From: Chloroflexaceae bacterium | GTDB lineage: Bacteria > Chloroflexota > Chloroflexia > Chloroflexales > Chloroflexaceae | Direction of reading: 5' to 3' | DNA: 37,669 nucleotides | NCBI GenBank assembly: GCA_012031225.1 | Contig: JAAUTZ010000031.1 | Location: 1-37,669 of the forward strand | Shown here: one piece after another, positions 18,618 through 37,669 of the stretch | How the letters are laid out: each line of letters begins with the position of its first letter | How positions within the stretch are numbered: the first letter of the stretch is position 1 | The notes under the pieces: model-generated | What the model was told of the DNA's origin: nothing | Databases searched by the model: none | Seen by the model: the letters and a program-made list of their open reading frames with translations, nothing else | Translations under genes and position numbers: made by a program

Positions 18618-19040
18618 GTGAGTGACAGCAGCCTCGATGAACTGATTGACGAACTCGAAGATGTACTGGCGGACGGGCGGCGGTTGCCATTTGGCATGGT
18701 GCTGGTGAACGAAGACAAGATTCTCGATATTGTTGACAAGATGCGGGTTGCCGTGCCGGATGAGATTAAGCAGGCGCGGCGCGTGGTGCAAGAGCAGGAA
18801 CGCATGCTGGATGAAGCCCAAGCACGGGTTCAGCAAGTGCTGACTGAACAGGGCTTGTTGGATGCGGTGCAAGCCGAGCGCGAACGCATGCTGGTGCAAG
18901 CCGAGCAGGAAGCGATCACGATCCGCAATGGAGCTGATGTGTATGCGCGTGAGGTGCTGGAAGATTTGGATGACCAACTGGTGAAGCTGCTGACGAGTGT
19001 GCGGAATGGGCTTGAGTCGCTGAACCATGTCGGGCAATAG
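18618..19040 (+). CDS. Coiled-coil protein, ATP synthase subunit b-like
   Basis: A 140-residue soluble protein, GTG start behind GAGGTG. The N-terminus (DELIDELEDVLADGRRLPFG) is followed by MVLVNEDKILDIVDKMR, then a long charged helix from about residue 50 to 110 (IKQARRVVQEQERMLDEAQA, AERERMLVQAEQEA) that should form a coiled coil. No transmembrane segment or catalytic motif is seen. Similar proteins are found next to coaD in Chloroflexi and Firmicutes and are often named ATPase or ATP synthase b-like from the coiled coil alone. Its function is unknown; the VNEDKILDIVDKMR part suggests a cell-division or envelope role, but that is inference. Confidence 0.75.
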   Translation: MSDSSLDELIDELEDVLADGRRLPFGMVLVNEDKILDIVDKMRVAVPDEIKQARRVVQEQERMLDEAQARVQQVLTEQGLLDAVQAERERMLVQAEQEAITIRNGADVYAREVLEDLDDQLVKLLTSVRNGLESLNHVGQ

Positions 19041-19071
19041 CCATCGTTTGTAATGCAGCAAGGCCCACCAT

Positions 19072-19617
19072 ATGACAACCCTAAAATTCAATGTGGCCCA
19101 ATTGCTCCGCGAGCCAATCGGCGCGAAACGCACCTACACCTTCGAGGAGCCGCAGCTCGCCCTCGATGGGCAGCTCCACCTGCGCGAGATCAGCGGCTCG
19201 GTGCAATTTACGCGCACCGCTTCGGGCGTGTATGCGTGGATCAGATCACAGGGCACCGTCGCGCTGACGTGTGTGCGTTCGCTTGAACCCTTCGATGAAG
19301 TGATCGCTATTGATGTGCGCGAGGAGATGCACTCGGTGGTGGATATTTTCACTGGCGGGGCTGTGCCGCAGCTTGCCGATGCTGAGGATTTCCGGCTCGA
19401 CGGCTTCCATATGGCTGACGTGGGCGAGGTGATCCGCGAGTACACGCTGCTCGAATTGCCGATCAAGCCGGTCAGTCCGGCATATCGGCATCAGCCCGTC
19501 AGCTATAGCGTGGGCGATGATGCCGAAGATCCCGCCGATGTTGCTGAAGTGGGCGATGCACGGCTGGCAGTATTGCGCGAATTGATCCACCGCCCAGCTG
19601 CACCGGAGCAGAATTGA
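19072..19617 (+). CDS. YceD/DUF177 family protein
   Basis: A 181-residue protein of the DUF177 (YceD) family, which in other bacteria and plants is needed for 23S rRNA accumulation and is nearly always encoded just before rpmF, as here. The N-terminal half has FNVAQLLREPIGAKRTYTFE; the middle has the strand pair LREISGSVQFTRTASGVYAW and TVALTCVRSLEPFD, where a family cysteine is kept. The acidic patch near the end (DAEDFRLDGF and IREYTLLELPIKPV) is typical. Ribosome-binding site is weak (AAGG). The C-terminus is variable. Confidence 0.85.
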   Translation: MTTLKFNVAQLLREPIGAKRTYTFEEPQLALDGQLHLREISGSVQFTRTASGVYAWIRSQGTVALTCVRSLEPFDEVIAIDVREEMHSVVDIFTGGAVPQLADAEDFRLDGFHMADVGEVIREYTLLELPIKPVSPAYRHQPVSYSVGDDAEDPADVAEVGDARLAVLRELIHRPAAPEQN

Positions 19618-19692
19618 GGACGTGACGCAGCGTGATCAGGCGTGACTGGAAGCGAATAGACAAATAGACTGTGAACAAGTAAGGAGACGACT

Positions 19693-19887
19693 ATGGGGGC
19701 ACTACCCAAACATAAAGTGTCGCGCCACCAGCGCGGCAATCGCCGGCGCCATCAGGTGCTCAAAGCACCGCATCTGGTGACGTGTTCCAACTGTGGCAGT
19801 ATGATGCAGCCGCATCGGGTGTGCAAAGTATGTGGCTACTATCGCGGGCGGCAAGTGCTAGTTGTACGTTCGCAAGACAACGACTAG
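19693..19887 (+). CDS. rpmF: 50S ribosomal protein L32, zinc-binding type
   Basis: A 64-residue L32. GALPKHKVSRHQRGNRRRHQ at the start and the zinc ribbon CSNCG...CKVCGYY (two Cys pairs) mark the zinc-binding form. It lies near L17 and L22 on the large subunit. AAGGAGACG precedes the ATG. The YceD-L32 pair upstream of fatty-acid genes (here fabH, fabD) is a widespread order. An intrinsic terminator follows 38 nt after its stop. Confidence 0.97.
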   Translation: MGALPKHKVSRHQRGNRRRHQVLKAPHLVTCSNCGSMMQPHRVCKVCGYYRGRQVLVVRSQDND

Positions 19888-19925
19888 GGCATTGCTTCCT
19901 CATTGGGTATGGCGTGATACGCATG

Positions 19926-19970
19926 CCCCTCTCGCGGCTGCACCTTCAGCACCTTGCGAGAGGGGTTTTT
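19926..19970 (+). terminator. Intrinsic terminator after rpmF
   Basis: CCCCTCTCGC (19926-19935) and GCGAGAGGGG (19956-19965) form a perfect 10-bp GC-rich stem with a 20-nt loop, followed directly by TTTTT (19966-19970). It separates rpmF from fabH, which starts only 26 nt later. Confidence 0.92.
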
Positions 19971-19996
19971 GATGAGAGTGGCACATACAAACGCGC

Positions 19997-21004
19997 ATGC
20001 AGCACTATGCAGCAATTACCGGATGGGGCATGGCCGTGCCAGCGCGAGTGGTCGCCAATGCTGAACTGACCACGCTGGTAGACACCTCTGATGAGTGGAT
20101 CCGCTCACGCACAGGCATTGGGCAGCGGCGGCTGGCCGCCCCCGATGAGTATACCTCTGTGTTGGCTACCGCCGCCGCACAGCAGGCGATAGCGCGGGCA
20201 GGCATTGAGCCAGCCCAAATCGAGTTGGTGATCCTCGCCACCTGCACCCCAGATCGGCTCTTCCCCGCCACCGCGTGTACGGTCCAAGCCAATCTGAATT
20301 TGCCCCACGCGGGCGCGTTCGATTTGGTAGCGGCATGCAGTGGTTTCGTCTATGGCTTGACCGTTGGCACCCGCATGATCCAGAGTGGCGCACACCGCAC
20401 GGTGCTGGTCATCGCCGCCGATCTGTTCAGCCACATCCTCAATTGGCACGACCGCGCAACATGCGTCTTGTTTGGCGATGGAGCCGGTGCGGTGGTGTTG
20501 CAGGCTACGCCAGAGCCACTGGGCCTGCTGAGCGCAGTGCTGCGCTCGGCGGGGCAACACGAACAGCACATGGCGATTGCCGCAGGCGGCACACGCCAGC
20601 CGCTCACCCCCGAACTGCTCGACGCGGGGGGCCACTTCTTCACCATGAACGGCGGCGAAGTCTACCGCCATGCCGTGCGTGATATGACCACCTCCTCGCT
20701 CGAAGCGGTTGCCGCAGCCGGCTTGACGATTGATGCAATTGATGTCATGATCCCACATCAAGCGAATATCCGTATTATTGATGCGCTTGCCAACCGCCTG
20801 ATGGTGCCCCGCGAACGGATTTTTGTGAATCTCGAACGCTACGGCAACACCTCCGCCGCCTCGGTTCCGCTCGCGCTCTGCGAAGCAGCAGCAGCAGGCT
20901 GGCTCAATGCCGGTAGTCGGGTGTTGCTGAGTGCGTTCGGTGGCGGCTTTACGTGGGCATCGGCAGTGGTGCGCTGGGGGATACCAACAACCCTCGTGCC
21001 CTAA
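19997..21004 (+). CDS. fabH: Beta-ketoacyl-ACP synthase III
   Basis: A 335-residue FabH, which condenses acetyl-CoA (or another starter acyl-CoA) with malonyl-ACP to begin fatty acid synthesis. The catalytic triad is visible: C114 in AACSGFVYG, H254 in IPHQANIRI and N284 in YGNTSAASV. The N-terminal TSDEWIRSRTGIGQRR is a family signature. No good ribosome-binding site lies before the ATG, so the start is less certain, but the N-terminal GWGMAVPARVV strand fits the family. A terminator is only 26 nt upstream; I did not find a clear promoter. fabD follows 50 nt downstream. Confidence 0.94.
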   Translation: MQHYAAITGWGMAVPARVVANAELTTLVDTSDEWIRSRTGIGQRRLAAPDEYTSVLATAAAQQAIARAGIEPAQIELVILATCTPDRLFPATACTVQANLNLPHAGAFDLVAACSGFVYGLTVGTRMIQSGAHRTVLVIAADLFSHILNWHDRATCVLFGDGAGAVVLQATPEPLGLLSAVLRSAGQHEQHMAIAAGGTRQPLTPELLDAGGHFFTMNGGEVYRHAVRDMTTSSLEAVAAAGLTIDAIDVMIPHQANIRIIDALANRLMVPRERIFVNLERYGNTSAASVPLALCEAAAAGWLNAGSRVLLSAFGGGFTWASAVVRWGIPTTLVP

Positions 21005-21054
21005 GCAAGCCCCCGACAATGGCTCCGGAATATGCTGAATAGAGGAGAGCAAGC

Positions 21055-22146
21055 ATGACGACGGCGTGGATCTTCCCCGGTCAAGGTTCGCAGTATGTGG
21101 GCATGGGGCGGGATCTGTATGACCACCAACCAGCCGCCCGCGAAGTGTTTGATTTTGCCGATCACGTTCTCGGCTTTGACTTAACGCGGCTGTGTTTCGA
21201 AGGCCCCGAAGCGGAGCTGATGGCAACTGAGAATGCCCAGCCCGCGCTCCTTACAACAAGCATTGCAACGTTGCGGGTGCTGCATACCCACGCCGATGTG
21301 GAAGTGTTGCCGGATCTATTGGTGCCCCACGCGGTGGCGGGGCACAGTCTCGGTGAGTATTCCGCGCTGGTCGCGGGCGGCAGCCTCGATCTGGAAACCG
21401 CCTTGCGGCTTGTGCGGCGGCGGGGCGAGCTAATGGCGGCAGCCCACGAAGGCACGATGGCAGCGGTGATTGGGCTGGATGAGCTAACGCTCGATAACGT
21501 CTGCCGCCAAGTCCAAGCCGAGCTAGGGGCCATGGTGGTGATTGCCAACTACAACACGCCCGATCAACTGGTGATTAGCGGGGCGGCGCACGCGGTGGAG
21601 CAGGCCAGTGTACTGGCCCGCCAGCACGGGGCGCGGCGGGTCTTTCCGCTGCGGGTGAGTGCCGCCTTCCATTCGCCCCTGATGGCTGCCGCCGCCCAGA
21701 AGATGCGCCAGATTCTGCATGCCGCCCCGCTCAACGATCTGCGGATCCCCTTGATTGGCAATGTCAATGCCGAGCCGGTGCAGCGGGCAAGCGAGGTGCG
21801 AAGCGAATTGGAAGCCCAGATTGATGCACCTGTGCGCTGGACAGCCAGTGTGCATGGCATGGCCGCACGCGGCATCCAGACGTTTGTGGAGATTGGCCCC
21901 GGGCGGGTGCTATCGGGCTTGGTCAAACGGATTGCGCCCGCCGCTCGGCAGATCACGCTGGGCACCCTCGCCGAGCTAGAGGCTATGCGGGCCAGCCGCA
22001 ATGGGCACAGACCGCAGGGGCTACCCCCACCAAACGGCCCGCACAGCGCAAGCGAGCCAAATGGCCTACCTGCCCCACCTGCCCCACCTAGCACCAATGG
22101 CACTCCCCCCGTAGCGCAGGAAGTGCCCCAAGCACGCGCACAATAA
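21055..22146 (+). CDS. fabD: Malonyl-CoA:ACP transacylase
   Basis: A 363-residue FabD that moves malonyl from CoA to ACP. AWIFPGQGSQYVGMGRDLY is the N-terminal signature. The nucleophile S98 lies in GHSLGEYSALVAGG, and the catalytic H206 in SAAFHSPLM. FVEIGPGRVLSGLVKRI closes the fold. From about residue 314 there is a Pro/Ala/Asn-rich tail of some 50 residues that is probably disordered and is not part of the usual enzyme of about 310. AGAGGAGAG gives a strong start. acpP and fabG, often adjacent, are not in the window. A strong hairpin follows the stop directly. Confidence 0.95.
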   Translation: MTTAWIFPGQGSQYVGMGRDLYDHQPAAREVFDFADHVLGFDLTRLCFEGPEAELMATENAQPALLTTSIATLRVLHTHADVEVLPDLLVPHAVAGHSLGEYSALVAGGSLDLETALRLVRRRGELMAAAHEGTMAAVIGLDELTLDNVCRQVQAELGAMVVIANYNTPDQLVISGAAHAVEQASVLARQHGARRVFPLRVSAAFHSPLMAAAAQKMRQILHAAPLNDLRIPLIGNVNAEPVQRASEVRSELEAQIDAPVRWTASVHGMAARGIQTFVEIGPGRVLSGLVKRIAPAARQITLGTLAELEAMRASRNGHRPQGLPPPNGPHSASEPNGLPAPPAPPSTNGTPPVAQEVPQARAQ

Positions 22147-22400
22147 AAGGGGGGTGTGGCGCAGAGAACCCGACAAACTGCGCCACACCCCATATGAAAG
22201 CCTGCGTTGCTTGACTACCTTACCAGAACAATCTGGATCTGTTTCACTGTTTCGTCTTTCAGCAGGGCAACAAAAGATTCAATCCAAATGGGCAAGCATT
22301 GGCTGCCCGATGTCCTGTCCGGCCCTCGTGCCCGCCAGCACTGCATTGGAGTGGGTAGGCGCGGAGGCTAGTGGACGGGTGATGCCTGACCGTCTGTTTG
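22144..22400 (-). ncRNA. Candidate structured small RNA (minus strand)
   Basis: Read on the minus strand, a strong promoter at 22407-22435 predicts a start near 22400. A 14-bp hairpin plus T-run at 22191-22145 would end the transcript after about 255 nt. Between them several local hairpins are possible: GACGG/CCGTC near the 5' end, GTGC/GCAC, GGGC-AGC/GCT-GCCC, and CCAGA/TCTGG around TTGT. I found no match by eye to SRP RNA, RNase P RNA, tmRNA or 6S RNA signatures. One 43-codon reading frame exists inside (22346 to 22215, minus) with no ribosome-binding site. It could be a small regulatory RNA, a small-protein mRNA, or a lineage-specific RNA. Confidence 0.55.
22145..22191 (-). terminator. Strong hairpin with minus-strand T-run
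   Basis: GGGGTGTGGCGCAG (22151-22164) and CTGCGCCACACCCC (22178-22191) form a perfect 14-bp stem with a 13-nt loop. On the minus strand it is followed by CC then TTTT, like an intrinsic terminator. On the plus strand there is no T-run, but the hairpin abuts the fabD stop and may also mark that 3' end. Confidence 0.8.
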
Positions 22401-22406
22401 ATACAA

Positions 22407-22435
22407 ATTATAGCACACCTAGTACCAGCAGGCAA
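22407..22435 (-). promoter_or_regulatory. Strong minus-strand promoter in the fabD downstream gap
   Basis: On the minus strand: TTGCCT (-35, 22435-22430), a 17-nt spacer and TATAAT (-10, 22412-22407), preceded by the extended element TGC. This is the best sigma70-type match in the window, and it points to no annotated gene. Confidence 0.75.
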
Positions 22436-22540
22436 GTAGGAGGATACTCAAACAGTTCCACAGAGAAAACAACGCAACGGGCTGTGCGGGCTTAGCTTCC
22501 AGCCCATCCCCCTCCCCCTGCACACCCTATCCCAAGAATC

Positions 22541-22549
22541 TGGTATCAT
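22541..22549 (+). promoter_or_regulatory. Possible promoter of the 22585 gene
   Basis: TGGTATCAT: an extended -10 with TATCAT at 22544-22549. No convincing -35 lies 16-18 nt upstream. The start of transcription would be about 30 nt before the ATG. Confidence 0.4.
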
Positions 22550-22584
22550 GTCAAAAAAGAGTTCTAATCCAGTAGGCATACCCA

Positions 22585-23397
22585 ATGAAACTGTTTGAAC
22601 AAACCGAAACGGCTTTTATTGTCCGCAACAGCACCCTCCGCAACGACATCGTGCTAGGGGGCTTGCTGATCGTGTTAGGCATTGTTGCCTTAGGCTCGAT
22701 CAGCTACATCATCGAATACACCACCCTGACGTGTAACCCGGTTGCCAATCGTTCGGTGACGTGCATTATGCAGGAGCATCGCCTATCTGGCGTATATACG
22801 ACTGAACTCACCAATGTGCTGGCGGTGTATGTCACCGAAGCCACCACCATCGGCACGGGGCGGTTTCAGGTGCGCCGCGATCAGATTGTCTTAGTTGCCG
22901 ATCAGGGCGAGGTACTCGTGCCCTATTTTTACAGTGCCGAATTTGGCAAGGTGCAAGTGCTTGCAACGCGCATCGCCCGCTATCTCGAAAACCCGCAGGG
23001 GCGGACTTTGGCGCTGCGCCAGAATCAGCAGGTGGAACATGAATTCCTCAACGTGGTGGCTGGTGCAGTACTGATTGCTATCGGCAATACCCAGATTGCG
23101 CTACAGGTGCGGCGATGGGAATTTGACCGCTCGGAAGGCGAACTCCTCATGATCAAGCAGCGCATTATGGGGCGGCAGGTGATGCCGGAAACGCCGTGCG
23201 CGGTACGCATCGAACGCACCTCTGATTACCGCATCCTGCGCGATCACGAGCACCGCCGCTCGTGGGTGACAGTGCTGTTCCCATCCGGCAGCGTGCAACG
23301 CATCACCCACAGCTACAAAGATAACCAGCCGGAGTATCCCCAGCTAGAGCCTCTGGTGCGCGATCTGCGCCAGTTTCTCGGAGTGGAACAGGCATGA
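22585..23397 (+). CDS. Two-TM membrane protein of unknown function
   Basis: A 270-residue protein I do not recognise. A hydrophobic segment at about residues 25-43 (LGGLLIVLGIVALGSISYI) and a second near 155-172 (LNVVAGAVLIAIGNTQIAL) suggest two membrane spans with a soluble domain between them, holding two cysteines (TCNPV, TCIMQ) that could form a disulfide if extracytoplasmic. The C-terminal part alternates strands and basic residues (WEFDRSEGELLMIKQRIMG) and ends with a helix, like a PH-type domain. Its stop overlaps the ATG of the recombinase (ATGA), so the two are probably co-translated. The minus-strand protein at 25964-26635 has a similar plan. Confidence 0.8.
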   Translation: MKLFEQTETAFIVRNSTLRNDIVLGGLLIVLGIVALGSISYIIEYTTLTCNPVANRSVTCIMQEHRLSGVYTTELTNVLAVYVTEATTIGTGRFQVRRDQIVLVADQGEVLVPYFYSAEFGKVQVLATRIARYLENPQGRTLALRQNQQVEHEFLNVVAGAVLIAIGNTQIALQVRRWEFDRSEGELLMIKQRIMGRQVMPETPCAVRIERTSDYRILRDHEHRRSWVTVLFPSGSVQRITHSYKDNQPEYPQLEPLVRDLRQFLGVEQA

Positions 23398-24590
23398 CCG
23401 CCGAGTATGCCATCCCCGCGCTCCATCCCCCCACGCTGGCGGCACTGGTGCAGCTCGCGCAGCAACCAATCACGCCGGAGATGCCACTGGGGCTAGCTGG
23501 GCAGATCTGGTTGGCGCGCCTAGAGACCGCCGGGCTGGATGCGCTGGATCTCGAATTTGCCTCCGATCAGCACGATGCCGCCCGCCAAGAAGACCAACGC
23601 CACCACTCGCGCCAAACGATCAACAGCTACCACACTGCGCTCGAACTCTTCCTGCGCTGGCTTGCACGCCAAGCGCGGCCCACCGTGGCCACCCTCACCC
23701 TTGATGACCTGCTGCTGTATGTCCGCATGTTGCGTTCGCGCAGCTACAACCTATCGCACCGTGCAGCCGCCCAGACCACCCCCACAACCCCACTGGCCGC
23801 ACGTTCGATCCACAGCTATACCCGCCCCCTACTCGGCTTCCTCACGCTGATCGAAAGCTACGGCGCACTCACCTTCACCACCAGCGTCGCCCGCGCCGAG
23901 CTAGCCCGCATCCTCCCGCGCCTACCCGAACCAGTCGCCCCGACCCCGCCCGACCTGCGGCGGGTGGTTGCCTACTTTGACCGCCCGCCTCTCGATGGAG
24001 ACCGCACCGCTCGCCTGCGCCTGATCCGGCTCCGCAATGCCGCCCTGCTCCATCTCCTGTTCTCATCGGCGGCCCGGATCTCAGAGGCACTAGGCTTGAA
24101 TATCGGCGACGTATGTCGGGATCGGCACATCCTCAGCCGTGCGCCGGTCTACTCCAAGGGGCGGCGGCAAGGCGTGATCTTCGTGCGCCGTAGTGCCGAG
24201 CAAGCCCTCGCCGCCTACCTCGAAGCCCGCGAGTACCCGCCCGCCGCATCGCCCCTCTTTGAGGCGTATGATCGGCGCACGGCGGGCGCACGCCTCAGCC
24301 GTTCAAGCGGCTGGCGCATCGTGCGCGAGGCCGCCGAAATGGTGGCGCAGCGGATGATAATCGAGGGCAAGCACGACGAAGCCGATCTGTTGCGCCAAAC
24401 GTCACCGCACACCTTCCGCCACTTCGTCGGCTACCACCTCCTCAACGAAGGAGTAGACCTCGCGGAGGTCTCGCAGATTCTACGCCACCGGAGCGTCGAA
24501 GTCACGCGCAGCTACTATGCCCGCTACCGCGACATTCAGCTACAGGAAGTGCATGACCAGTTCAGTGCCGATCCATTGCCATTTGCGTAA
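23394..24590 (+). CDS. Tyrosine recombinase (Xer/phage integrase family)
   Basis: A 398-residue site-specific recombinase. The N-terminal SAM-like DNA-binding region is at about residues 70-160 (TINSYHTALELFLRWLARQ). Catalytic residues are visible: R228 in SAARISEALGLNIGDV, K255 in YSKGRRQG, H339 and R342 in HTFRHFVGYHLL, H365 in LRHRSVEVTRSYY, and the nucleophile Y374. All the key residues are present, so it is probably active. It is about 100 residues longer than XerC/XerD. It overlaps the upstream membrane-protein gene by 4 nt. No att repeats or other mobile genes are seen, so it looks resident, not part of an intact mobile element. Confidence 0.92.
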   Translation: MTAEYAIPALHPPTLAALVQLAQQPITPEMPLGLAGQIWLARLETAGLDALDLEFASDQHDAARQEDQRHHSRQTINSYHTALELFLRWLARQARPTVATLTLDDLLLYVRMLRSRSYNLSHRAAAQTTPTTPLAARSIHSYTRPLLGFLTLIESYGALTFTTSVARAELARILPRLPEPVAPTPPDLRRVVAYFDRPPLDGDRTARLRLIRLRNAALLHLLFSSAARISEALGLNIGDVCRDRHILSRAPVYSKGRRQGVIFVRRSAEQALAAYLEAREYPPAASPLFEAYDRRTAGARLSRSSGWRIVREAAEMVAQRMIIEGKHDEADLLRQTSPHTFRHFVGYHLLNEGVDLAEVSQILRHRSVEVTRSYYARYRDIQLQEVHDQFSADPLPFA

Positions 24591-24651
24591 CTGCGTAACG
24601 TGCGCGGGATCACGTATCAAGGATTGGCAGAAGCAGACAGGAGGTACAACC

Positions 24652-25917
24652 GTGCCAACAACATTGGAACTAACGATCACCGGTATGGCACAGGGCGGCA
24701 CAGGCGTTGCCCGTAGCGCGGGCAAAGTGGTGTTTGTCGCCGGGGCCCTCCCCCACGAACGGGTACTGGCGCAGATCACGCAGGAAGCAGCCGCCTATAT
24801 GCGCGGGCATGTGCTAGAGGTCTACGAGCCTGCACCAGAGCGGGTTGAGCCGCGCCTGCCGCAGGCCGATCATCTGCTTTGGCAGCACATCGCCTACCCA
24901 GCCCAACTCCAGTTCAAGCAGACGATCCTGCGTGAACAGGTGCAGAAGCTCGCCCGCCTTGCCGAGCCACCCATCGCCCCCATGCTACCCGCCACCCCGA
25001 TCTGGCACTACCGCAACACTGCCCGCCTACACCTTGCAGGCAATCACCCCGATACATTGCAGATTGGCTACTATGCAGCGGGCACGCAGCAGGTGCGTGA
25101 TCTACCCGCCGATCCCACGCTCCTGCCCGCTATGAATGCCGCCCTACACGGCATGCGGATTGCCATTGAGGATGTGCTAGAGCAAGCCGAGCCACTGCCG
25201 AGCAGCGTGCTATTGCGCGGCAGTGCCGTAGGCGGCTACGTGGTGGCCGCCCTGCTTGATCTGCCCCGCCCCGCCCGTGTGCATCGGCGGTTTGCTGTGC
25301 GCTGGCAGGGCTTTGTGCCTGCGCTAGCGGGGGTTGCCCTTGCGCCGGATGAGCCAGTAACACTGCACGAGGAGCTAGGCGGGATCACCTTTACCCTCTC
25401 GCCCTTCAGCTTCTTCCAGACCAACACGGCACAGGCAGAGGTGCTGCTCGGCGTGATCCAGCGCATGCTCAAGCCGCACGCAGGCATGACCCTCCTCGAT
25501 GCCTACTGCGGCGTTGGCGCGTTCGCGTTGCCGTTGGCCCGCCATGTACGGCAGGTGCTCGCAATTGAGCAGGACGCGCAGGCAGTGCAGGATGGGCAAG
25601 AGAATGCCGCCATCAATGGGATCACCAATGTTCGCTTCTCCACCGGAGCGGTTGAAGCAGTCCTGCCTACCCTGCGCCCCGCCCTCGATGCGGCGATCCT
25701 CGATCCGCCCCGCCGTGGCTGCGATGCGCGGGTGCTTGCCGCCCTGCTCGAACGCAAGCCGCACCGGATTGTCTACGTCGCCTGTCATCCGGGCGTGCTG
25801 GCCCGGGATTTGGCGATCTTGCTGGAGGGTGGCTATCGCCTGATCGAGGTGCAGCCAATAGATATGTTCCCGCACACGCCCCACATCGAATGTGTGGCAT
25901 TGCTGGAATGGGCGTAA
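24652..25917 (+). CDS. TrmA/RlmD-family RNA (uracil-5-)-methyltransferase
   Basis: A 421-residue SAM-dependent methyltransferase acting on uridine C5 in 23S rRNA or tRNA. A TRAM domain covers about residues 1-60 (ITGMAQGGTGVARSAGKVVF). The SAM site is LLDAYCGVGAFALPLA (281-296), FFQTN is at 254-258, the DPPRRGCDARVL motif at 351-362, nucleophile C378 in YVACHPGVLARDL and base E413 in HIECVALLE. The usual four-Cys Fe-S cluster motif before the QHIAYPAQLQFK segment is missing: there are no cysteines in that region. I start at the GTG at 24652 because AGGAGGT lies 6 nt upstream. The exact target uridine cannot be decided. Confidence 0.9.
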   Translation: MPTTLELTITGMAQGGTGVARSAGKVVFVAGALPHERVLAQITQEAAAYMRGHVLEVYEPAPERVEPRLPQADHLLWQHIAYPAQLQFKQTILREQVQKLARLAEPPIAPMLPATPIWHYRNTARLHLAGNHPDTLQIGYYAAGTQQVRDLPADPTLLPAMNAALHGMRIAIEDVLEQAEPLPSSVLLRGSAVGGYVVAALLDLPRPARVHRRFAVRWQGFVPALAGVALAPDEPVTLHEELGGITFTLSPFSFFQTNTAQAEVLLGVIQRMLKPHAGMTLLDAYCGVGAFALPLARHVRQVLAIEQDAQAVQDGQENAAINGITNVRFSTGAVEAVLPTLRPALDAAILDPPRRGCDARVLAALLERKPHRIVYVACHPGVLARDLAILLEGGYRLIEVQPIDMFPHTPHIECVALLEWA

Positions 25918-25929
25918 TCCAGAATGCAG

Positions 25930-25962
25930 CCGGCAGGGGCACACCACCGCCCGCCCTGCCGG
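25930..25962. terminator. Hairpin between convergent genes
   Basis: CCGGCAGGG (25930-25938) and CCCTGCCGG (25954-25962) form a perfect 9-bp stem with a 15-nt loop, lying exactly between the stop codons of the + and - strand genes. No T-run on either side; possibly a bidirectional transcript end. Confidence 0.6.
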
Positions 25963-25963
25963 G

Positions 25964-26635
25964 CTACGCGGTGGCCGTTTCGGGGGGCTGGAGCGACATA
26001 TCGAGGATCTGCGCTACTGCCGCCGCGAGCGGTGCGAGTTCAGCTGGATCGCGGGCACTGTCTACAATCCACACATACTCCTCATCCGTCACCATCTCCA
26101 GCACCGTGAGCGTGTAGGTGCGCTTGAGCAGATTGCCCACCTGCACCGGGCGCGGCTTCAGGCGCAGCTGCGCCACCTGCCCATACTGAAGCGTCTGTGA
26201 GCGCAGGCGATGCACCTGATTCTGCTGCGTGTAACGGATGGTGCGGGCGTGCGGATCAAACGTGATGGTATTGGTGGTAGTGGCAACGGCCCGCCCACTG
26301 ACCACACCAAGCAGCCCAATCGTGGCGCAGGGCCAGCTCAAGGCACTGCCGAAGCACGCAGCCTCGAAGCTCTGCCCGCCCGTGCTAAAGAAGGCAATAA
26401 TCACGGCTGGTGTGACCAGTGCCAATGCCGCCCCACCGAGCATATACCGCCGCCCCACCCGCCGATTATCGCCCGTTTGTGCGGTCAAGATCAGCGTATC
26501 TGCCGCAGGCGGGGCGATCTGGTAGTAGGGGTGCAAGCCCAGCCGTCGCCCGATCACTTGTCGCCGGATGCGCTTCGGGGGAACAGATGAGGCAGTTTCT
26601 TCGGCTATATCTGGCATATACTCCTCGCGGCTCAT
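25964..26635 (-). CDS. Two-TM membrane protein of unknown function
   Basis: A protein of up to 223 residues that I do not recognise. Two hydrophobic stretches, YMLGGAALALVTPAVIIAFF (about 64-83) and the LSWPCATIGLLGVVSG segment (about 99-114), suggest two membrane spans. The C-terminal soluble part (ITFDPHARTIRYTQQNQVHR, then YGQVAQLRLKPRP and a final helix) looks like a PH-type beta domain. The start is uncertain: ATG at 26635, or ATG at 26617, which has GAGGAG just upstream (spacing short). It is the only minus-strand protein gene in the window and is divergent from the HEAT-repeat gene. Confidence 0.75.
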   Translation of the reverse strand: MSREEYMPDIAEETASSVPPKRIRRQVIGRRLGLHPYYQIAPPAADTLILTAQTGDNRRVGRRYMLGGAALALVTPAVIIAFFSTGGQSFEAACFGSALSWPCATIGLLGVVSGRAVATTTNTITFDPHARTIRYTQQNQVHRLRSQTLQYGQVAQLRLKPRPVQVGNLLKRTYTLTVLEMVTDEEYVWIVDSARDPAELAPLAAAVAQILDMSLQPPETATA

Positions 26636-26745
26636 CTACAAACTACGGAGGTTCAGAATAGTACTCGTTCGCGTGCAATGGCTCGCACCTATTTCGTTTC
26701 TGTTGGTACATTGTAATCTTAGCGTCATCATTTCACCATGCTACG

Positions 26746-26754
26746 TGGTATAAT
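26746..26754 (+). promoter_or_regulatory. Promoter of the HEAT-repeat gene
   Basis: TGGTATAAT: a perfect TATAAT (26749-26754) with an extended TG. The -35 region is poor. Predicted start near 26761, giving a leader of about 73 nt. The 198-nt divergent gap also must hold the promoter of the minus-strand gene, which I could not place. Confidence 0.6.
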
Positions 26755-26833
26755 ACAATCCAAGTTGTAGAATACTGGTTTATTGTTGCTTCAATATAGC
26801 CCAAATGCAATCATATCAGGATGTGAGGCTCGT

Positions 26834-28018
26834 ATGTTTGACCGTTCAACATGGCGCATGCAGGTCGGGCGCAAACTCGATGGGTTTGCCCGCAACCCGC
26901 GCCAAGAGATCGTAATTAGTAGTGGGCCTGTTATGTTGCTCACCTACCTCGCAAGTGTCACGCTAGAGCCATTCCTGAATGCCTTCGAGGAAGAGCCAAT
27001 CACCGCTATCCAAACGTTAGCGAGCATCTCGGCTATCCCGGAGATGAATGCCGTTGTGCGCCGTGCGCCGTCTATGCGCTACCAGTTGACGCATCTGCTC
27101 GAATACGAACTGCGCCACAGTACGCAGTGGCGTTCGGCTATCGAGCAATTGCTCGTGGGCGTGGATACGGTGCAGCTAGCCCGCCAACGCCTGCACGGGC
27201 TGGACTCGGATTGGTTCATTGATGCGCTCCGCAATGAGATCATTGATCTCTCACCGACTGAGTTTCTGGAGTTGCACCGCCGCCTGAATGACTCACTCAA
27301 ATCATTTTACGGCATTTTTCAGGAGATGCGCCAGCGCAAAGGCACGTATACCCAAGAAGAGTTGATCCTGATCTACGTCGGCTTGAGCGATAGCTCGGCG
27401 GCAGTGCGGGCCCAAGCAGCGCGGCGGCTCGGCGAGTATGCGTGGAGTCCATCTGAGAATATGGTCAATCGCTTAATCCAGATTGCCCTCTATGATAATG
27501 ATCTCGAATCGCGCAACGCCGCCGCCCGCGCTGTCGGCGCACTCAAAGATCGGATCCACACCCCCGTCATTCTAGAGGTGCTATCGGCGCGGCTCCGTGA
27601 TCAGGATCGCTTCGTGCGAACAGCGACGGCCATGCTGCTCTCCCATCTCGGCGAGTTGGCGGGAACAACCAGCATGGTTGAGGGTTTAGTGCAGCTGCTC
27701 CACGATCCCGATTCGTATGCCCGCGAAGCCGCCGCCCACGCGCTCGGTACGATGGGCGTGAATGCCACCGCCGCACCGGTCATCGGTGCGCTAGCGCAGG
27801 CATTGCAAGACGATAATGAGCATGTCCACGATGCCGCGCTTGATTCGCTCACGCACCTGCGCGAGTTACGTGATGTGCAGACAACGGTGCCCCCGCGCAT
27901 TACCACACCCACATCGCCCGCCGCCCCCGCGAAGCCGCACCCTGAAGCACCCACCGCACCAGAGCCACACCGCCACGATGATACATCCGAGCTGCTTGCG
28001 CCCAGCCTGACCCGCTAA
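26834..28018 (+). CDS. HEAT-repeat protein
   Basis: A 394-residue protein. Residues about 190-360 consist of repeated helical pairs of HEAT type, for example DSSAAVRAQAARRLGEYAWS, DNDLESRNAAARAVGALKDR, QDRFVRTATAMLLSHLGEL and DPDSYAREAAAHALGTMGV. The first 190 residues are mostly helical with no recognised domain. The last 45 residues are Pro/Thr/Ala-rich and probably disordered. No signal peptide or TM helix, so it is likely a cytoplasmic scaffold for protein interactions. I use the ATG at 26834; an upstream TTG at 26783 is in frame but less likely. Confidence 0.8.
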   Translation: MFDRSTWRMQVGRKLDGFARNPRQEIVISSGPVMLLTYLASVTLEPFLNAFEEEPITAIQTLASISAIPEMNAVVRRAPSMRYQLTHLLEYELRHSTQWRSAIEQLLVGVDTVQLARQRLHGLDSDWFIDALRNEIIDLSPTEFLELHRRLNDSLKSFYGIFQEMRQRKGTYTQEELILIYVGLSDSSAAVRAQAARRLGEYAWSPSENMVNRLIQIALYDNDLESRNAAARAVGALKDRIHTPVILEVLSARLRDQDRFVRTATAMLLSHLGELAGTTSMVEGLVQLLHDPDSYAREAAAHALGTMGVNATAAPVIGALAQALQDDNEHVHDAALDSLTHLRELRDVQTTVPPRITTPTSPAAPAKPHPEAPTAPEPHRHDDTSELLAPSLTR

Positions 28019-28023
28019 GGTGA

Positions 28024-28042
28024 GCGAGCTGCGTTTGCTCGC
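28024..28042 (+). other. Hairpin after the HEAT-repeat gene
   Basis: GCGAGC (28024-28029) pairs with GCTCGC (28037-28042), loop 7 nt, 6 nt after the stop. It has no T-run; possible 3' end structure. Confidence 0.45.
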
Positions 28043-28114
28043 GGTTGAGTCCCAACGGCGGCGGCGGCTTACGCCACGCTCCGCACGGCATCCTCCCGCC
28101 AGCCTCCCCCTGAT

Positions 28115-28143
28115 TTGTAAATCTCCCCAGAAACTGCTACGAT
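28115..28143 (+). promoter_or_regulatory. Promoter of the lipoprotein gene
   Basis: TTGTAA (28115-28120), a 17-nt spacer and TACGAT (28138-28143) preceded by TGC. Predicted start near 28150, about 55 nt before the ATG. Confidence 0.6.
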
Positions 28144-28204
28144 AAGAAGCGAATGCTGGTGTGGCTACGGGCTATGCCGTGCTGTACAGTGAGATGAAGA
28201 CACG

Positions 28205-29509
28205 ATGCAAGTGACCAATAGATTGCCGCCCCCCCGCTTTGCCGCGCTCTGGGGGGGGAGTGAGACAGGTAAGTCAAGCGGTTCGGCTAGGTCAGTCAGG
28301 ATTGTTGCCCTGCTGCTGACAGTGCTGGCAGGCATCCTGCTCGGCGGGTGTGGCGTGAACCGCCCGCTCCTGAGTGACATCCAAGCCGACCCGCCCCTGC
28401 TCCAGCCGACGGGCGCAGGTGAAACCACGATCATCAGCTACCGCATCGGGCGCGAGGCGGTGCTGGATATGTACCTCGAATCCGCCGCCGGGCAACGCTA
28501 CGATTTGCGCCGCGCTGTGCCGCGCAGCCCCGACGAGGCCCCCTACACCTTGCGCTTTGATGGAACCGTGCCCGTTGATCCGGCGGATAACGCCGGCTTG
28601 CTGCGCCGCCTCTTGCCCGATGGCGACTATACGGTGGTGGTGGTGGCCCGCGCAACCGATGGCAGCACCAGCGAGGCCCGCACCGTCATTGCGGTGCGGA
28701 GTGATACGCCGCCCCTGCCCGCCATTGAGAATCTGCTCGCATTCCCAGAAACCATCTCGCCCAACGCCGATGCAATTGACGATGTAACGGAGATTACCTA
28801 TCGCCTACCCGTCACCGCCACCGTAGATATTGCCATCACCACCCCCGACGGGCAGGTGCTGCCATTTGTCACCCGCGAGCTAGCCAGCCCAGAGGAGCGG
28901 CGGCATGTGTGGAACGGCAAACGCCCCGATGGGGCGATGCTGCCCGATGGGGTCTACACCTACACCGTGCAAGCCGAAGATCGCTTCGGCAACCTTGTGC
29001 AGCGCGAAGGCACAATCCGCCTGATCAATGTTGGTCAACCAGAAGCCACGATTATCTCGGCCCGCATCGCCCCCGAACGGCTGATGCTCGGCGGCACGCT
29101 CACCGTCGAGATGCGGATCCGCAACACAGGCGATGTGCCGATCCGCACCTACGGGCCTCCGAGTGGCTTTACCTACACCACCGATGAGGTCTACTCGACG
29201 ATTGCCGCTGGGCGTTACACCGCCCAAGCGGGCGGCTTCTGGCGCGTGGGCATGGATTGGGACGCAAATTCGGGCGGTGGCGCACGTCGCTACCCGTTCC
29301 GCTGGGCCCTGTCCGAACGTCCGCCGGAACAGTGGCGCATCCCCTACACGGAAGATTGGCTCATGCCCGGCGAGGAAGTTGCGGTGGTGGGGCATGTGCA
29401 GGTTGTGCAGCCGGAAACCCGCATGTACTTCTACGTCGGCTTGATTCAGGATGGGGTCGGCTTCCCACAAGATCGCACCGCCCGCACATTGATCGAGGTC
29501 GGCTTCTAG
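28205..29509 (+). CDS. Lipoprotein with FlgD-type Ig-like domains
   Basis: A 434-residue exported lipoprotein. A long n-region of about 30 residues precedes the hydrophobic VRIVALLLTVLAGILLGGC, with the lipobox LGGC and acylated Cys at residue 49. Two modules resemble the Ig-like domain of FlgD and related caps: LPDGDYTVVVVARATDGS near residue 150, and SPNADAIDDVTEITYRLP with MLPDGVYTYTVQAEDRFGN near residues 190-265. The rest (LGGTLTVEMRIRNTGDVPIR) looks like another beta-sandwich. No enzyme motif is seen, and no flagellar genes are nearby, so a cell-surface binding or structural role is more likely. The start is supported by a promoter but the ribosome-binding site is weak. Confidence 0.8.
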   Translation: MQVTNRLPPPRFAALWGGSETGKSSGSARSVRIVALLLTVLAGILLGGCGVNRPLLSDIQADPPLLQPTGAGETTIISYRIGREAVLDMYLESAAGQRYDLRRAVPRSPDEAPYTLRFDGTVPVDPADNAGLLRRLLPDGDYTVVVVARATDGSTSEARTVIAVRSDTPPLPAIENLLAFPETISPNADAIDDVTEITYRLPVTATVDIAITTPDGQVLPFVTRELASPEERRHVWNGKRPDGAMLPDGVYTYTVQAEDRFGNLVQREGTIRLINVGQPEATIISARIAPERLMLGGTLTVEMRIRNTGDVPIRTYGPPSGFTYTTDEVYSTIAAGRYTAQAGGFWRVGMDWDANSGGGARRYPFRWALSERPPEQWRIPYTEDWLMPGEEVAVVGHVQVVQPETRMYFYVGLIQDGVGFPQDRTARTLIEVGF

Positions 29510-29619
29510 GATGTAGCAAAGGCAGCCCACGCAGGACCCGCAGGCGACGCAGAATACACAGCTAAAACGGTGGTCTGTCTGCCACCGAGCACGCGCCGCC
29601 TAGCCCCGCACACACACCT

Positions 29620-32600
29620 ATGCCTAGCGCACCGCCACCACCAATGTTACTCGAAACTGTCGCCAGCTACGTGCCGCGTATTCTTGTGCGCTGGTATCAG
29701 GATGAGCCGCGCCTGTTGCATACCCCCACCGCCCGCCGCCTGCACGCCCCGATCCTGATTGCCGATCTGTCTGGCTTCACGCACCTGAGCGAGGTTCTGT
29801 CGCACCGCCAACCTGACGGGGTAGAGCAGCTCTCGCGCTTGCTGAATCGCTACTTCGGCAGCATGATAGATACGCTCCTAGCGCACGGCGGTGATATTGT
29901 CGAATTTACGGGCGATGGGCTGATCGCGCTGTGGGATGCTCACGAATACACGCCGCCGCCCGATCTGCCGGTGCTGCTTGCCCAAGCCGCTCACGCCGCG
30001 CTTGCGCTCCAGCACGAGCTGGCCCAGCTTACCGCAGCATACCCCATCGCCGATACGCACCTGACGCTGCGGGTGTGCATCGGCGTGGGCGAGGTGCTGG
30101 TCCTCTCAGTCGGTGGGGTTTTGGGGCGGTGGGAGTTGCTCGTGGCGGGCGATGCAGTCCAGCAAGCCAGCGATGCGATTGGGCAGGCCCACACCGGCGA
30201 GGTGTTGCTATCGGCGGCGGCGTGGCACACGTTGGGGCAGGTAGCGCACGGTGTGCCCACCACCCGCAACCGCACGTACTGCCTCCATCAGCTCAGGGCT
30301 CCGCGCCTGCCTGCACCCGCTCCGCCCCTGCCCGAACCAGCCACCTTGCCCCTGATCCGGGGCCACATTCCCGGCGCAGTCCTCAGCCGCATGCAGGCCG
30401 GCCAGACGGAGTGGCTGGCAGAGCTGCGCTACCTCACGGTGATCTTTCTCGACGTGCAAGGGCTGAACTACACCGCGCCGGATGCCCTGCAACAGGTGCA
30501 TAGCGTGATGCGGGCCTTGCAAATTGTGCTCTACCAATATGAAGGTAGTGTCAATCAATTCATTGTGGATGACAAAGGCACGGTGTTGGTTGCCGCACTC
30601 GGCTTGCCGCCCCTCACCCATCGGCACGAAGCAGTGCTGGCGGTGCAAGCAGCACAGGCGATGGTGCAGCGGGTGCAGCAATTGGGCTACGGCAGTGTGG
30701 CGGGCCTAGCGACGGGCTTGGTCTTTTGCGGCTCACGCGGCAACCACCGCCGCCGTGACTATGCCCTGATCGGCGATGTGATCAATCTTGCCTCGCGCCT
30801 GATGCAGCACGCCCAACAGCTTGAACCTGACCCAGCCACGCCGGATCTGCCCGCCGTGCTGTGCGATGCAGCCACCTACCAAGCCGCCCGTGCCCAGCTG
30901 AACTTTGCGCGGCTGCCGCCTGTGCCGATCAAAGGCAAAGGTGCGCCAGTGGCAATCTTTCGGCCTTTGGGCACCCAACCCCCGCTCGGCACGCCGCCGC
31001 CTTTGATTGGGCGTGCCGCAGAACAGGCGTTGCTCACCGGCTTGTTCGATTGCCTGCTGCACAAGCGCACCAGTGCCGTGCTGATCCTCGAAGGCGAAGT
31101 GGGCATGGGCAAGTCGCGCCTGCTGGATGATCTCCTCGAACATGCCCGCGCATACGCAACAATCACGCTGCTTGGGGCCGGCGATGCGCTAGCCCACCAC
31201 ACGCCCTACCATGCGTGGCGGAGCGTGTTTCAGCAGTTGTTTCATCTGCACCTGCTGCCCAATGATCTTGCAACCCAGCAAGCGCACGTCTTGCACAGCC
31301 TTGCGATTGCCCCTGAACTGCTAGAGCTTGCCCCCCTGCTAAATACCATCCTGCACCTCGATCTGCCTGATACCGCGCTCACCGCCCACATGCCCGCCAC
31401 GGTGCGGGCTGAACAGACCCACCGCATCCTGTTGCGCCTGTTACAGCTTGCCAGCACGCACCTCCCAATGGTACTGGTGTTGGAGGATGCCCACTGGCTC
31501 GACTCGCCATCGTGGAGCCTTGCCCTTGCCGCCACCCAGACGATCACGCCGCTGCTGCTGATCGTCTCGACCCAACCCCTCACCGAGCCACTCGCCCGCG
31601 AGTATCAGCAACTGCTGCGCCAGCCACAGGCCCAGCGGCTCCTCCTCGCCGAGCTGGAGGACGAAGCCGCACGCCAGTTGATCGCCGTGCAACTTGACGT
31701 TGCATATGTCGCCGATGAGGTGCTAGAACTCGTGCAGCACCATGCGCGGGGCAACCCGTTCCTGATTGCCGAACTTACGCGCAGCCTGTACGAGGCGGGA
31801 ACCCTGCGCTGCACCGCCAACGACTGCCGCCTGCCCGCCAACGGCGACCTGCCCAGCCTGATCCGCCTGCCCGCCAATGTGCAGGGCGTGATTGCCAGCC
31901 GCATTGATCGCCAGCCGCCCGCACTGCAACTCACGGTCAAGGTGGCCAGCGTGATTGGCGTGCGCTTTGCCAGTACGACTCTGCACGCCATCTACCCACT
32001 GGCGATTACCCCCACCCAAATGCAGGACTACCTGCGCCAGTTGGAGCAGGCGCAGATCTTCCGGCGGCTAACCCGCGACGGCAGCGAGTGGGAGTTTGTG
32101 CATATCCTGATCCGCGAGGCGGTCTACGCCACCTTGCTGTATGCCCAACGCCGTGATCTGCACCGAGCCGTAGCAACGTGGCATGAGCAGCATCCCCCCG
32201 ATGGGCAGTATATCCACGCGGCAACATTGGCGCACCACTGGCTGCACGCCGAAGAACCAGCGCGAGCATTAGGCTATCTGGTGCAGGCAGGCGAATATGC
32301 CCTCCACACCCACGCCTACCGCGAGGCAAGCCGCCTGCTGCTCCACGCACTGGTACTGGTGGGGCGTGTGCCGCCGCCGCCCACTGCCGCCGAACTTGCC
32401 CACCTGCACCACCTGCTACCGGAGCCAGATCGCCCGCCACCCGCTGAGTTGGTGCGCTGGCAACGCCTGCTGGCTGAGGCTTATCTTGCACGCGGCAAGC
32501 TCGCCCAGAGCCGCGAGCAGTTGGAGCAGGCCCTCCAACACACCGGCTATCCCCCGCCCCACACCAAGCACCTATTGGCATTGCTCGTGCGCTGTAGCCT

Positions 32601-33768
32601 GCGTCCGCAGCAACAGCCTGCACTGCATGCGGAAGCCGCCCGCCTGTATGCCCAACTTAGCACGGTGGCATTCTTCGCGGGGCGTAGCCGCCACGCGATC
32701 ACCGCCAATCTTGCCGCACTTGCCCTAGCCGAGCAGATCGGCATATCGCCAGAGCTAGCCCTTGCCCGCGCAGCACATGCGGTTGCCTTAGCTGCTCTCG
32801 GCTTCACCCGCCCTGCCCACATCACCATGCACCGCGCCCAACGCATTGCCACCCAAACGGGCGATGCCGCAACCCAAGCAACGGTGGCAAGCATGGCGGG
32901 CTTGGCGGCAACCGGGCGCGGGGCGTGGGCCGTTGCCCAGACGGCCCTGCACACCGCCCTCGATCAGAGCAGCAAGCTCCGCGATGATCGCCAGTGGGGG
33001 CAGGCGTGGCTATTGTTGGCCCAGTGTTACGCTTTTCAGGGCGACTTCCGCCGCGCCCAATCCATGTTTGTGGTGCTATCCCAAGCGAGCCACCAGCGCG
33101 GCGACGGAGTGCAGCAAGCGTGGGCATGGGGCGGGCAAGGCCAGATGGCGTTGCGGCGCGGCGATCTGGGGCACGCCCAGCACCTGTTGACACAGACGAA
33201 CACGCTGCTTGATCCGAGTGAGTCACCCAGCATCATCGGCAACTACGGCTTGCTCGCGCAGACCTACCTGCGGCTAGGCGATCTTGCCGCCGCCCAGCAC
33301 GCCGCGCAACACAGCTCCGCGCTGCTCGCCGAACTGCGTGCGCCACTGGCCTACTACCTGCTCGAAGGCTATGCGGGCTGCGCCGAGCTTGCCTTGTATC
33401 AGTGGCAGCAGGCAATCCAGCAGCGGGTCATCCGTGCCGCCCGCGAGCGCACCCGCCGCGCCGCCCGCCGTGCCTGCACGGCCCTCGCCCACTATGCCTA
33501 CCACTTCCCCATCGGCAAACCGCGCTGGCGGCTCTATCTCGGCTACTACCTCCTGCTCCACGGCTGGCACAGGCTCGCCATGCAGCAGTGGCACTGGGCT
33601 TTGCACACCGCCACCGAACTGGGTATGCCCTACGAGGCCGCCCTCCTCCACACGCTGCTCGCCCGCCACGCCCCCCAGCCAGCCACGCGCCAGCAGCATC
33701 AGCACCACGCGCACATCATGTTTGCACAGACGGGCGGCGACCCCACGACAGCCGTAGTGCTAGGCTAG
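29620..33768 (+). CDS. Soluble-adenylyl-cyclase-like protein: two cyclase domains, ATPase, TPR-like tail
   Basis: A 1382-residue cytoplasmic protein. Cyclase domain 1 (about 40-225) has metal-site aspartates D49 (ILIADLSGFT) and D99 (FTGDGLIALW). Cyclase domain 2 (about 268-450) has the transition-state pair N389 and R393 (DVINLASRL). A P-loop ATPase follows: Walker A GEVGMGKS (492-499) and Walker B MVLVLEDAHWLD (617-628). From about 880 on there are TPR-like helical repeats. The order matches mammalian soluble adenylyl cyclase. Domain 1 lacks Asn/Arg (Q181, D185) and domain 2 lacks the second Asp (T321), so only one composite active site is expected. The usual base-recognition Lys and Asp/Thr are D317 and A382, so ATP specificity or activity is uncertain. 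The start is at 29620 or 29644. Confidence 0.88.
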   Translation: MPSAPPPPMLLETVASYVPRILVRWYQDEPRLLHTPTARRLHAPILIADLSGFTHLSEVLSHRQPDGVEQLSRLLNRYFGSMIDTLLAHGGDIVEFTGDGLIALWDAHEYTPPPDLPVLLAQAAHAALALQHELAQLTAAYPIADTHLTLRVCIGVGEVLVLSVGGVLGRWELLVAGDAVQQASDAIGQAHTGEVLLSAAAWHTLGQVAHGVPTTRNRTYCLHQLRAPRLPAPAPPLPEPATLPLIRGHIPGAVLSRMQAGQTEWLAELRYLTVIFLDVQGLNYTAPDALQQVHSVMRALQIVLYQYEGSVNQFIVDDKGTVLVAALGLPPLTHRHEAVLAVQAAQAMVQRVQQLGYGSVAGLATGLVFCGSRGNHRRRDYALIGDVINLASRLMQHAQQLEPDPATPDLPAVLCDAATYQAARAQLNFARLPPVPIKGKGAPVAIFRPLGTQPPLGTPPPLIGRAAEQALLTGLFDCLLHKRTSAVLILEGEVGMGKSRLLDDLLEHARAYATITLLGAGDALAHHTPYHAWRSVFQQLFHLHLLPNDLATQQAHVLHSLAIAPELLELAPLLNTILHLDLPDTALTAHMPATVRAEQTHRILLRLLQLASTHLPMVLVLEDAHWLDSPSWSLALAATQTITPLLLIVSTQPLTEPLAREYQQLLRQPQAQRLLLAELEDEAARQLIAVQLDVAYVADEVLELVQHHARGNPFLIAELTRSLYEAGTLRCTANDCRLPANGDLPSLIRLPANVQGVIASRIDRQPPALQLTVKVASVIGVRFASTTLHAIYPLAITPTQMQDYLRQLEQAQIFRRLTRDGSEWEFVHILIREAVYATLLYAQRRDLHRAVATWHEQHPPDGQYIHAATLAHHWLHAEEPARALGYLVQAGEYALHTHAYREASRLLLHALVLVGRVPPPPTAAELAHLHHLLPEPDRPPPAELVRWQRLLAEAYLARGKLAQSREQLEQALQHTGYPPPHTKHLLALLVRCSLRPQQQPALHAEAARLYAQLSTVAFFAGRSRHAITANLAALALAEQIGISPELALARAAHAVALAALGFTRPAHITMHRAQRIATQTGDAATQATVASMAGLAATGRGAWAVAQTALHTALDQSSKLRDDRQWGQAWLLLAQCYAFQGDFRRAQSMFVVLSQASHQRGDGVQQAWAWGGQGQMALRRGDLGHAQHLLTQTNTLLDPSESPSIIGNYGLLAQTYLRLGDLAAAQHAAQHSSALLAELRAPLAYYLLEGYAGCAELALYQWQQAIQQRVIRAARERTRRAARRACTALAHYAYHFPIGKPRWRLYLGYYLLLHGWHRLAMQQWHWALHTATELGMPYEAALLHTLLARHAPQPATRQQHQHHAHIMFAQTGGDPTTAVVLG

Positions 33769-33791
33769 CCCCCACTGATGCGAACGATGCG

Positions 33792-33836
33792 AATGACGGG
33801 AATGACGGGAATGACGGGAATGACGGGAATGACGGG
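33792..33836 (+). repeat. Tandem repeat, five copies of AATGACGGG
   Basis: Five perfect, contiguous 9-bp copies of AATGACGGG, located just after the cyclase gene in a 242-nt gap. The unit length of 9 would keep a reading frame, but I see no gene here. Confidence 0.95.
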
Positions 33837-33848
33837 ATGCCAGCTAGG

Positions 33849-33875
33849 GCTGATACGGCTGATACGGCTGATACG
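33849..33875 (+). repeat. Tandem repeat, three copies of GCTGATACG
   Basis: Three perfect contiguous copies of a different 9-bp unit, 12 nt after the AATGACGGG block and about 20 nt upstream of a promoter -10. It could be a regulator-binding array or a replication-slippage product. Confidence 0.95.
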
Positions 33876-33890
33876 GGCAGAGCCTATTTC

Positions 33891-33899
33891 TGCTATAAT
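33891..33899 (+). promoter_or_regulatory. Promoter of the small membrane protein gene
   Basis: TGCTATAAT: a perfect TATAAT (33894-33899) with extended TG. The -35 region coincides with the end of the GCTGATACG repeats (TGATAC with a long 19-nt spacer), so the repeats may affect promoter strength. Confidence 0.6.
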
Positions 33900-34010
33900 G
33901 CACAGCGTTCAGCCATAACGTAAAAGAGTGCCACACCCGTGATGATGGGCCTGTGGTAGGCACAGGCCCAACACCGCAGCAAGTGGAGCTAACCAGAAAG
34001 GAAATGACGG

Positions 34011-34409
34011 ATGCCAGCCGGAATTGTAGTTCTTGCGATCCTGTACATTATCGGTGGGATACTCGCGTTGGTCTGGGGCGTGGTTGCAATCAGTGTGGGC
34101 AGTGTGAGTTGGATCACGGGCGTGCTGTTCTCTAGCACCATGCGCGAATTTGGTGGCTCGGCCTTTTGGGGCGGCTTTTGGGGTATCGGCAGTGCGGTCT
34201 TGAACTTTGCGGTAGGGTTCGGGCTATTTGCGCGGCAGAAGTGGGCCTACATCCTCGCGTGGATTGCCGCCGCCTTCTCGCTTGTAGGGCCGATTGCAGG
34301 CTTGCTAGGGGGCAACTTCTGGGCCCTGTTCGGCTTGATTATTCCGGGCGCGATCTTCTCCTACCTGACCTTCAACGAGAACGTGAAGCAGACCTTTGGG
34401 CGTGGCTGA
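34011..34409 (+). CDS. Small multi-TM membrane protein
   Basis: A 132-residue hydrophobic protein with about four predicted membrane spans: residues near 5-32 (VVLAILYIIGGILALVWGVV), 50-72, 77-95 (AYILAWIAAAFSLVGPIAG) and 97-118 (FWALFGLIIPGAIFSYL). The C-terminus (NENVKQTFGRG) is short and polar. No family is recognised; small four-TM proteins of this sort are common in Chloroflexi. AAAGGAAATG lies upstream of the start. It precedes the two coiled-coil membrane paralogues and may form an operon with them. Confidence 0.75.
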   Translation: MPAGIVVLAILYIIGGILALVWGVVAISVGSVSWITGVLFSSTMREFGGSAFWGGFWGIGSAVLNFAVGFGLFARQKWAYILAWIAAAFSLVGPIAGLLGGNFWALFGLIIPGAIFSYLTFNENVKQTFGRG

Positions 34410-34431
34410 TGCGGAGCACAGGAACCACGCA

Positions 34432-35154: not shown

Positions 35155-35211
35155 CGGCACGCGCTGCCCCAAGCAGGCGGACAGGGCAGATCTGTAGAAG
35201 GGGAGGAACTG

Positions 35212-35943: not shown

Positions 35944-35963
35944 CTCTGCTGGACGGTAGGACG

Positions 35964-35972
35964 TGGTATGAT
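35964..35972 (+). promoter_or_regulatory. Promoter of the M20 amidohydrolase gene
   Basis: TGGTATGAT: TATGAT at 35967-35972 with extended TG, 20 nt after the previous stop. Predicted leader about 33 nt. -35 weak. Confidence 0.5.
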
Positions 35973-36011
35973 ACAGATGAGAATGCCAAACTAGCGACAG
36001 GAGAACTCCAC

Positions 36012-37415: not shown

Positions 37416-37446
37416 CAACCAGCAATCGTCTGAGGAGCTGATCCGC

Positions 37447-37669
37447 ATGGTGCCAGTTCTCACCCGTCGTCAACTCTTGAAGCTACTCGGCATTGGTGCC
37501 GCCAGCAGTGCCGCCAGTGCGTGTGCTGGCGCGGGGCTACCGCTTGCGGCACACAGCCCTGCCGCACCAGAGCCACCCCCCAGCACCACCAACCCGCCCA
37601 CACCAACGCCAACGCCACCAGCCCCGCCCGCACCAGAGCCAACGCTAGCGCCAGTGCTGCCCGCCGAGC
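37447..37669 (+). CDS. Tat-type exported lipoprotein, N-terminal part (cut by window end)
   Basis: The first 74 codons of a protein continuing beyond the window. The start MVPVLTRRQLLKLLGIGAA has a twin-arginine motif (TRRQLLK), a short hydrophobic stretch, and a possible lipobox ending in C26 (SAASAC). After the cysteine comes a Pro/Thr/Ala-rich linker (TNPPTPTPTPPAPPAPEP), typical of cell-surface lipoproteins such as substrate-binding proteins. The mature domain is not visible, so function is unknown. GAGGAG gives a good start 9 nt upstream. It follows the M20 hydrolase by 31 nt and could share its operon. Confidence 0.75.
   Translation, partial: MVPVLTRRQLLKLLGIGAASSAASACAGAGLPLAAHSPAAPEPPPSTTNPPTPTPTPPAPPAPEPTLAPVLPAE

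Follow-up and report, generated by a model that had tools for sequence, protein, structure and literature searches.

A candidate small RNA gene convergent with fabD in one genus of the Chloroflexaceae

Base-pairing with mRNAs is the commonest mode of action of orphan small RNAs encoded in bacterial intergenic regions. The locus that we describe here resembles such sRNAs in its predicted promoter of the sigma70 type, its length of about 250 nt, its non-coding character, its terminator-like 3' hairpin and its narrow phylogenetic range, and differs from them in that it has no sequence relative in Rfam and is known, in two species only, from sequence alone. With 6S RNA (RF00013) it shares its size class and the status of an independent gene, and it occurs in a genus without a detectable 6S. 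Lineages that lack 6S can carry other RNA-polymerase-associated RNAs, namely Ms1 and CoRP, the latter being limited to Corynebacterium, where it might replace 6S (PMC11077062). Like CoRP, the element is confined to one genus, and one without a detectable 6S; unlike Ms1 and CoRP, it matches no Rfam family and has been seen only as a sequence, and CoRP is about twice as long. Within the same phylum, the Chloroflexi-1 RNA (RF01698), listed for Chloroflexus aggregans (PMC2864571), is likewise a candidate non-coding RNA, but its model gave no match to the window in the Rfam search, nor to the element at a lax threshold.

The window, that is, the whole stretch of 37,669 nt that was analysed, comes from a Chloroflexaceae genome (G000), and the sole sister species available for comparison is G001. 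The element lies in a gap of 438 nt (22147-22584) between fabD (21055-22146, plus strand; PF00698), which converges on it, and a gene for a 270-aa protein without a Pfam match (22585-23397, plus strand), which diverges from it. A tyrosine recombinase gene (23394-24590; Phage_integrase in Pfam), whose sister-species counterpart is 95% identical, adjoins the 270-aa gene. The preliminary description of this DNA had proposed that the gap holds an independent, structured small RNA gene on the minus strand, with a promoter and a terminator of its own and no protein-coding gene.

The promoter is present as described, with a TTGCCT hexamer, a spacer of 17 nt and a TATAAT preceded by an extended TG, on the minus strand at 22435-22407. 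Promoter-like sites with 9 of 12 positions are frequent by chance (10 observed against 5.3 expected at 19001-37669). In the sister species the block TACTTGCCT with the -35 hexamer (22430-22435) is the same (9/9), and the extended -10 element TGCTATAAT (22407-22415, TATAAT at 22412-22407) is kept together with the downstream TTTGTAT at 15 of 16 positions. The hexamer blocks thus retain 24 of 25 positions, against 7 of the 15 compared in the diverged spacer between them. Conserved hexamers around a spacer that is not conserved support selection on a predicted minus-strand promoter belonging to the element itself. Unlike the 9-of-12 sites, the extended motif TGNTATAAT is rare in its exact form, with only three copies in 37.7 kb, the other two, at 26746 and 33891 (plus strand), each standing just upstream of a gene, which suggests that it is a local promoter signature. 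Immediately upstream of one TGNTATAAT promoter motif, 99 nt (33767-33865) have no counterpart in the sister species. On the far side of the gap, a conserved CCAAGAATCTGGTATCATGTCAAAA (22536-22560, plus strand) contains an extended -10-like TGGTATCAT (about 22541-22549), which probably serves the 270-aa gene as its promoter and points away from that of the putative sRNA.

From the position of the -10 element, transcription would start near 22400. The predicted 5' part of the transcript, about 75 nt long (22325-22400, minus strand), has diverged freely, with 59% identity to the sister and an 8-nt deletion there. It is followed by a conserved core (22187-22324) with 118 of 138 positions identical (p 5e-6 against four-fold degenerate sites), in which two blocks are nearly invariant, UGUUGCCCUGCUGAAAGACGAAA.AGUGAAACA and GUAGUCAAGCAACGCAGGCUUUCAUAUGGG. 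Core and 3' hairpin together keep 150 of 173 nt (87%), compared with 69% at four-fold sites (p 4e-8); the latter were pooled from the neighbouring genes (771 sites, including 24 from an rlmD ORF that seems misaligned). The remaining intergenic DNA of the two contigs is 75% identical; relative to this the naive p value is 1e-4, and by block bootstrap the best 173-nt window reaches 0.023, which is only moderately unusual. From these two values the excess of conservation looks real but moderate. In a comparison of nine intergenic stretches, the element holds the longest invariant run, of 32 nt, as well as the best windows of 100-140 nt, and no other stretch of its length is better conserved. The ribosomal-protein half of the window, with its uncurated gene starts, was largely set aside for this comparison.

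At the other end, the perfect 14-bp hairpin followed by CCTTTT that had been reported was found on the minus strand at 22191-22151 and 22150-22145; the T run ends about 262 nt beyond the -10 box. No other perfect inverted repeat with 12 bp or more and a loop of 3-20 occurs in the window, and none turned up in five shuffled versions. A terminator scan with a loop limit of 8 left the hairpin unflagged because its loop, of 13-14 nt, exceeds that limit. In the sister species both arms have changed, yet the hairpin persists and its loop sequence is unaltered; the U-run after it is missing there and is present in the window's species alone. On the plus strand the hairpin starts about 5 nt past the fabD stop codon (9-10 nt in the sister) and is therefore probably a bidirectional terminator common to fabD and the sRNA. 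One hairpin arm, GGGTGTGGCGCAG, resembles the 5' end of a tRNA; a tRNA-like origin was rejected, as other occurrences of GGGTGTGGCGCAG in the genomes lie outside tRNA genes. At the element a search found no tRNA, either in the window's sequence or in that of the sister.

The placement of the hairpin directly at the fabD stop, together with the minus-strand U-run not kept in the sister, would also suit conserved DNA in place of a minus-strand RNA gene, either the plus-strand 3' UTR of the fabD operon with its terminator or a DNA site with a regulatory role, the promoter match being incidental. Such an explanation fails to predict that both hexamers are kept at the right distance from each other across a diverged spacer, and we consider it rather unlikely. 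If there is a minus-strand RNA, its convergence on the 3' end of fabD raises the idea of a cis-antisense or transcriptional-interference device: the 3' hairpin is perfectly complementary to the one in the fabD 3' UTR, sits within a few nucleotides of the stop codon in both species, and has an invariant loop through which the two could pair. Antisense RNAs pair whether or not their sequence is conserved, however, so that the conserved core outside fabD is left unexplained, and overlap with the fabD coding region would require read-through, because the terminator-like hairpin precedes fabD on the path of the sRNA. We therefore judge a role of this kind to be distinctly unlikely. A small protein would account for conservation of the core in another way. 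The only core ORF in frame in both species (22346-22215, minus strand, with a TAG at 22217-22215 and a product ending in ...SFVALLKDETVKQIQIVLVR) is open in both across 37 compared codons, has a common stop codon, and contains ALLKD-like codon strings that match coding sequence elsewhere. Its ATG is nevertheless lost in the sister, its 18 differences fall equally on the three codon positions (6/6/6; pN 0.165, pS 0.154), and the 32-nt invariant run extends beyond its stop. This sole candidate thus shows no coding constraint, a protein product is very unlikely, and the gap contains no convincing gene, as had been stated earlier.

A diverged 6S RNA was considered because RF00013 detects 6S in 34 of the 61 relatives but in neither G000 nor G001. 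A model that we derived from six of the order's own 6S RNAs gave only noise on the element even with filters off, and found no 6S in G000 or G001 among the 150 first-look candidates scored per genome. The element also has none of the motifs common to those six RNAs, and its predicted folds lack the one long rod, open at a central bubble, that marks 6S. A 6S is detectable in about half of the related genera, but neither the Rfam model nor the order model finds one in G000, G001 or the genera g10, g11, g13 and g15; the other genera without detectable 6S also lack the element. The model searches thus suggest that part of the family has lost 6S or that it has diverged strongly there, and the earlier remark that the element has no 6S signature is borne out; that it is 6S itself we regard as extremely improbable. 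By analogy with CoRP, it might still replace 6S in function, as an RNA that is abundant, limited to the genus and bound to RNA polymerase, which we rate as highly improbable.

The description of the RNA as structured finds little support. Folding of the whole transcript is at most slightly better than that of shuffled sequences (z -1.2), the core without the hairpin folds no better than shuffled sequence (z about 0), and the folds predicted for the two species are unlike each other, each with separate hairpins. One small hairpin (GGGCAGC-loop-GCU(U)GCCC; 22290-22308, minus strand) has an invariant stem and a loop that varies between CAAU and UCAU. In an apical CCAG/CUGG hairpin one base pair is altered on both sides, from C-G to G-C, and this is the one compensatory change among 32 pairs compared, in a test of covariation that is poor because only two sequences exist. 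The proposed alignment of relatives has accordingly yielded a core conserved in one sister and a single compensatory pair, and structure of the RNA is possible. The Rfam search that had been suggested matched no known family: with the window and the sister sequence there was no match at gathering thresholds, and lax thresholds gave meaningless weak matches. A match to snoR35 at 22 bits was discarded (a eukaryotic family, far under its cut-off), as was a tracrRNA, since the core has no repeat-array match in its own genome.

The element is present in a single copy and has a very narrow distribution. Among 61 related genomes, only G001 has the sequence, at 78% identity, and when 158 genomes of the class were searched with a covariance model of the core, G000 and G001 alone gave a match, leaving 156 in which the element was not found. 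Laxer filters on 40 genomes added weak core-model matches only; weak matches of the model in G123, G015 and others were rejected as coding DNA or low-scoring, and short BLAST matches in other genera lay in unrelated genes wherever checked and were put down to chance. A pattern scan of GTDB returned three matches, two of them chance and the third the sister genome. Phage and plasmid searches gave no match to the element and, with its single copy, led us to reject a mobile element. In several relatives in the family, the next ORF directly after fabD has about 248 aa and, from its length and position, is probably fabG; in the genus of G000 this linkage is broken, and fabD is followed instead by the gap and the lineage-specific 270-aa protein, which outside the genus was found only in G011. 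Given its restriction to these two genomes and the altered fabD neighbourhood in the genus, the element would be of recent origin and specific to the genus, to judge by the searched genomes.

The retention of the promoter hexamers and the core, the divergence of the 5' part and the lack of coding constraint together support a real minus-strand non-coding RNA, probably of about 250 nt. That the gap contains an independent sRNA gene on the minus strand, starting near 22400, with a core of about 140 nt and an end at the hairpin, and acting by base-pairing or protein binding, is the reading that we favour, with somewhat better than even confidence. For the independent gene that had been proposed, the hexamers and the core thus speak in favour, in contrast to the spacer and the 5' part, which are not kept, and the missing U-run of the terminator in the sister speaks against. 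Most likely the element is a genus-specific, Hfq-independent regulatory sRNA that has a bidirectional terminator in common with fabD.

A rough proposal for how this sRNA might work can be made. RNA polymerase would start near 22400 at the extended -10 promoter, read through the poorly conserved 5' stretch and then the conserved core, and stop at the 22191-22151 hairpin, where the convergent fabD mRNA would end as well. Those segments of the core that hardly vary and are only weakly structured would then most likely pair with mRNAs elsewhere in the genome; base-pairing is favoured here because it is the commonest mode of action and would suit segments that are conserved but have little structure. 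Hfq would not be needed, since none was found in 21 relatives in a search whose positive controls worked. Alternatively, the core may bind a protein.

On present evidence, the element is one more orphan sRNA candidate limited to one genus, and an ordinary kind of find unless it should prove to be a stand-in for the 6S RNA that seems to be absent from that genus. However, we found few papers on small RNAs of Chloroflexota in the literature, and since Hfq was not detected in the group either, a well-delimited sRNA gene would provide a handle on how these bacteria use regulatory RNA.
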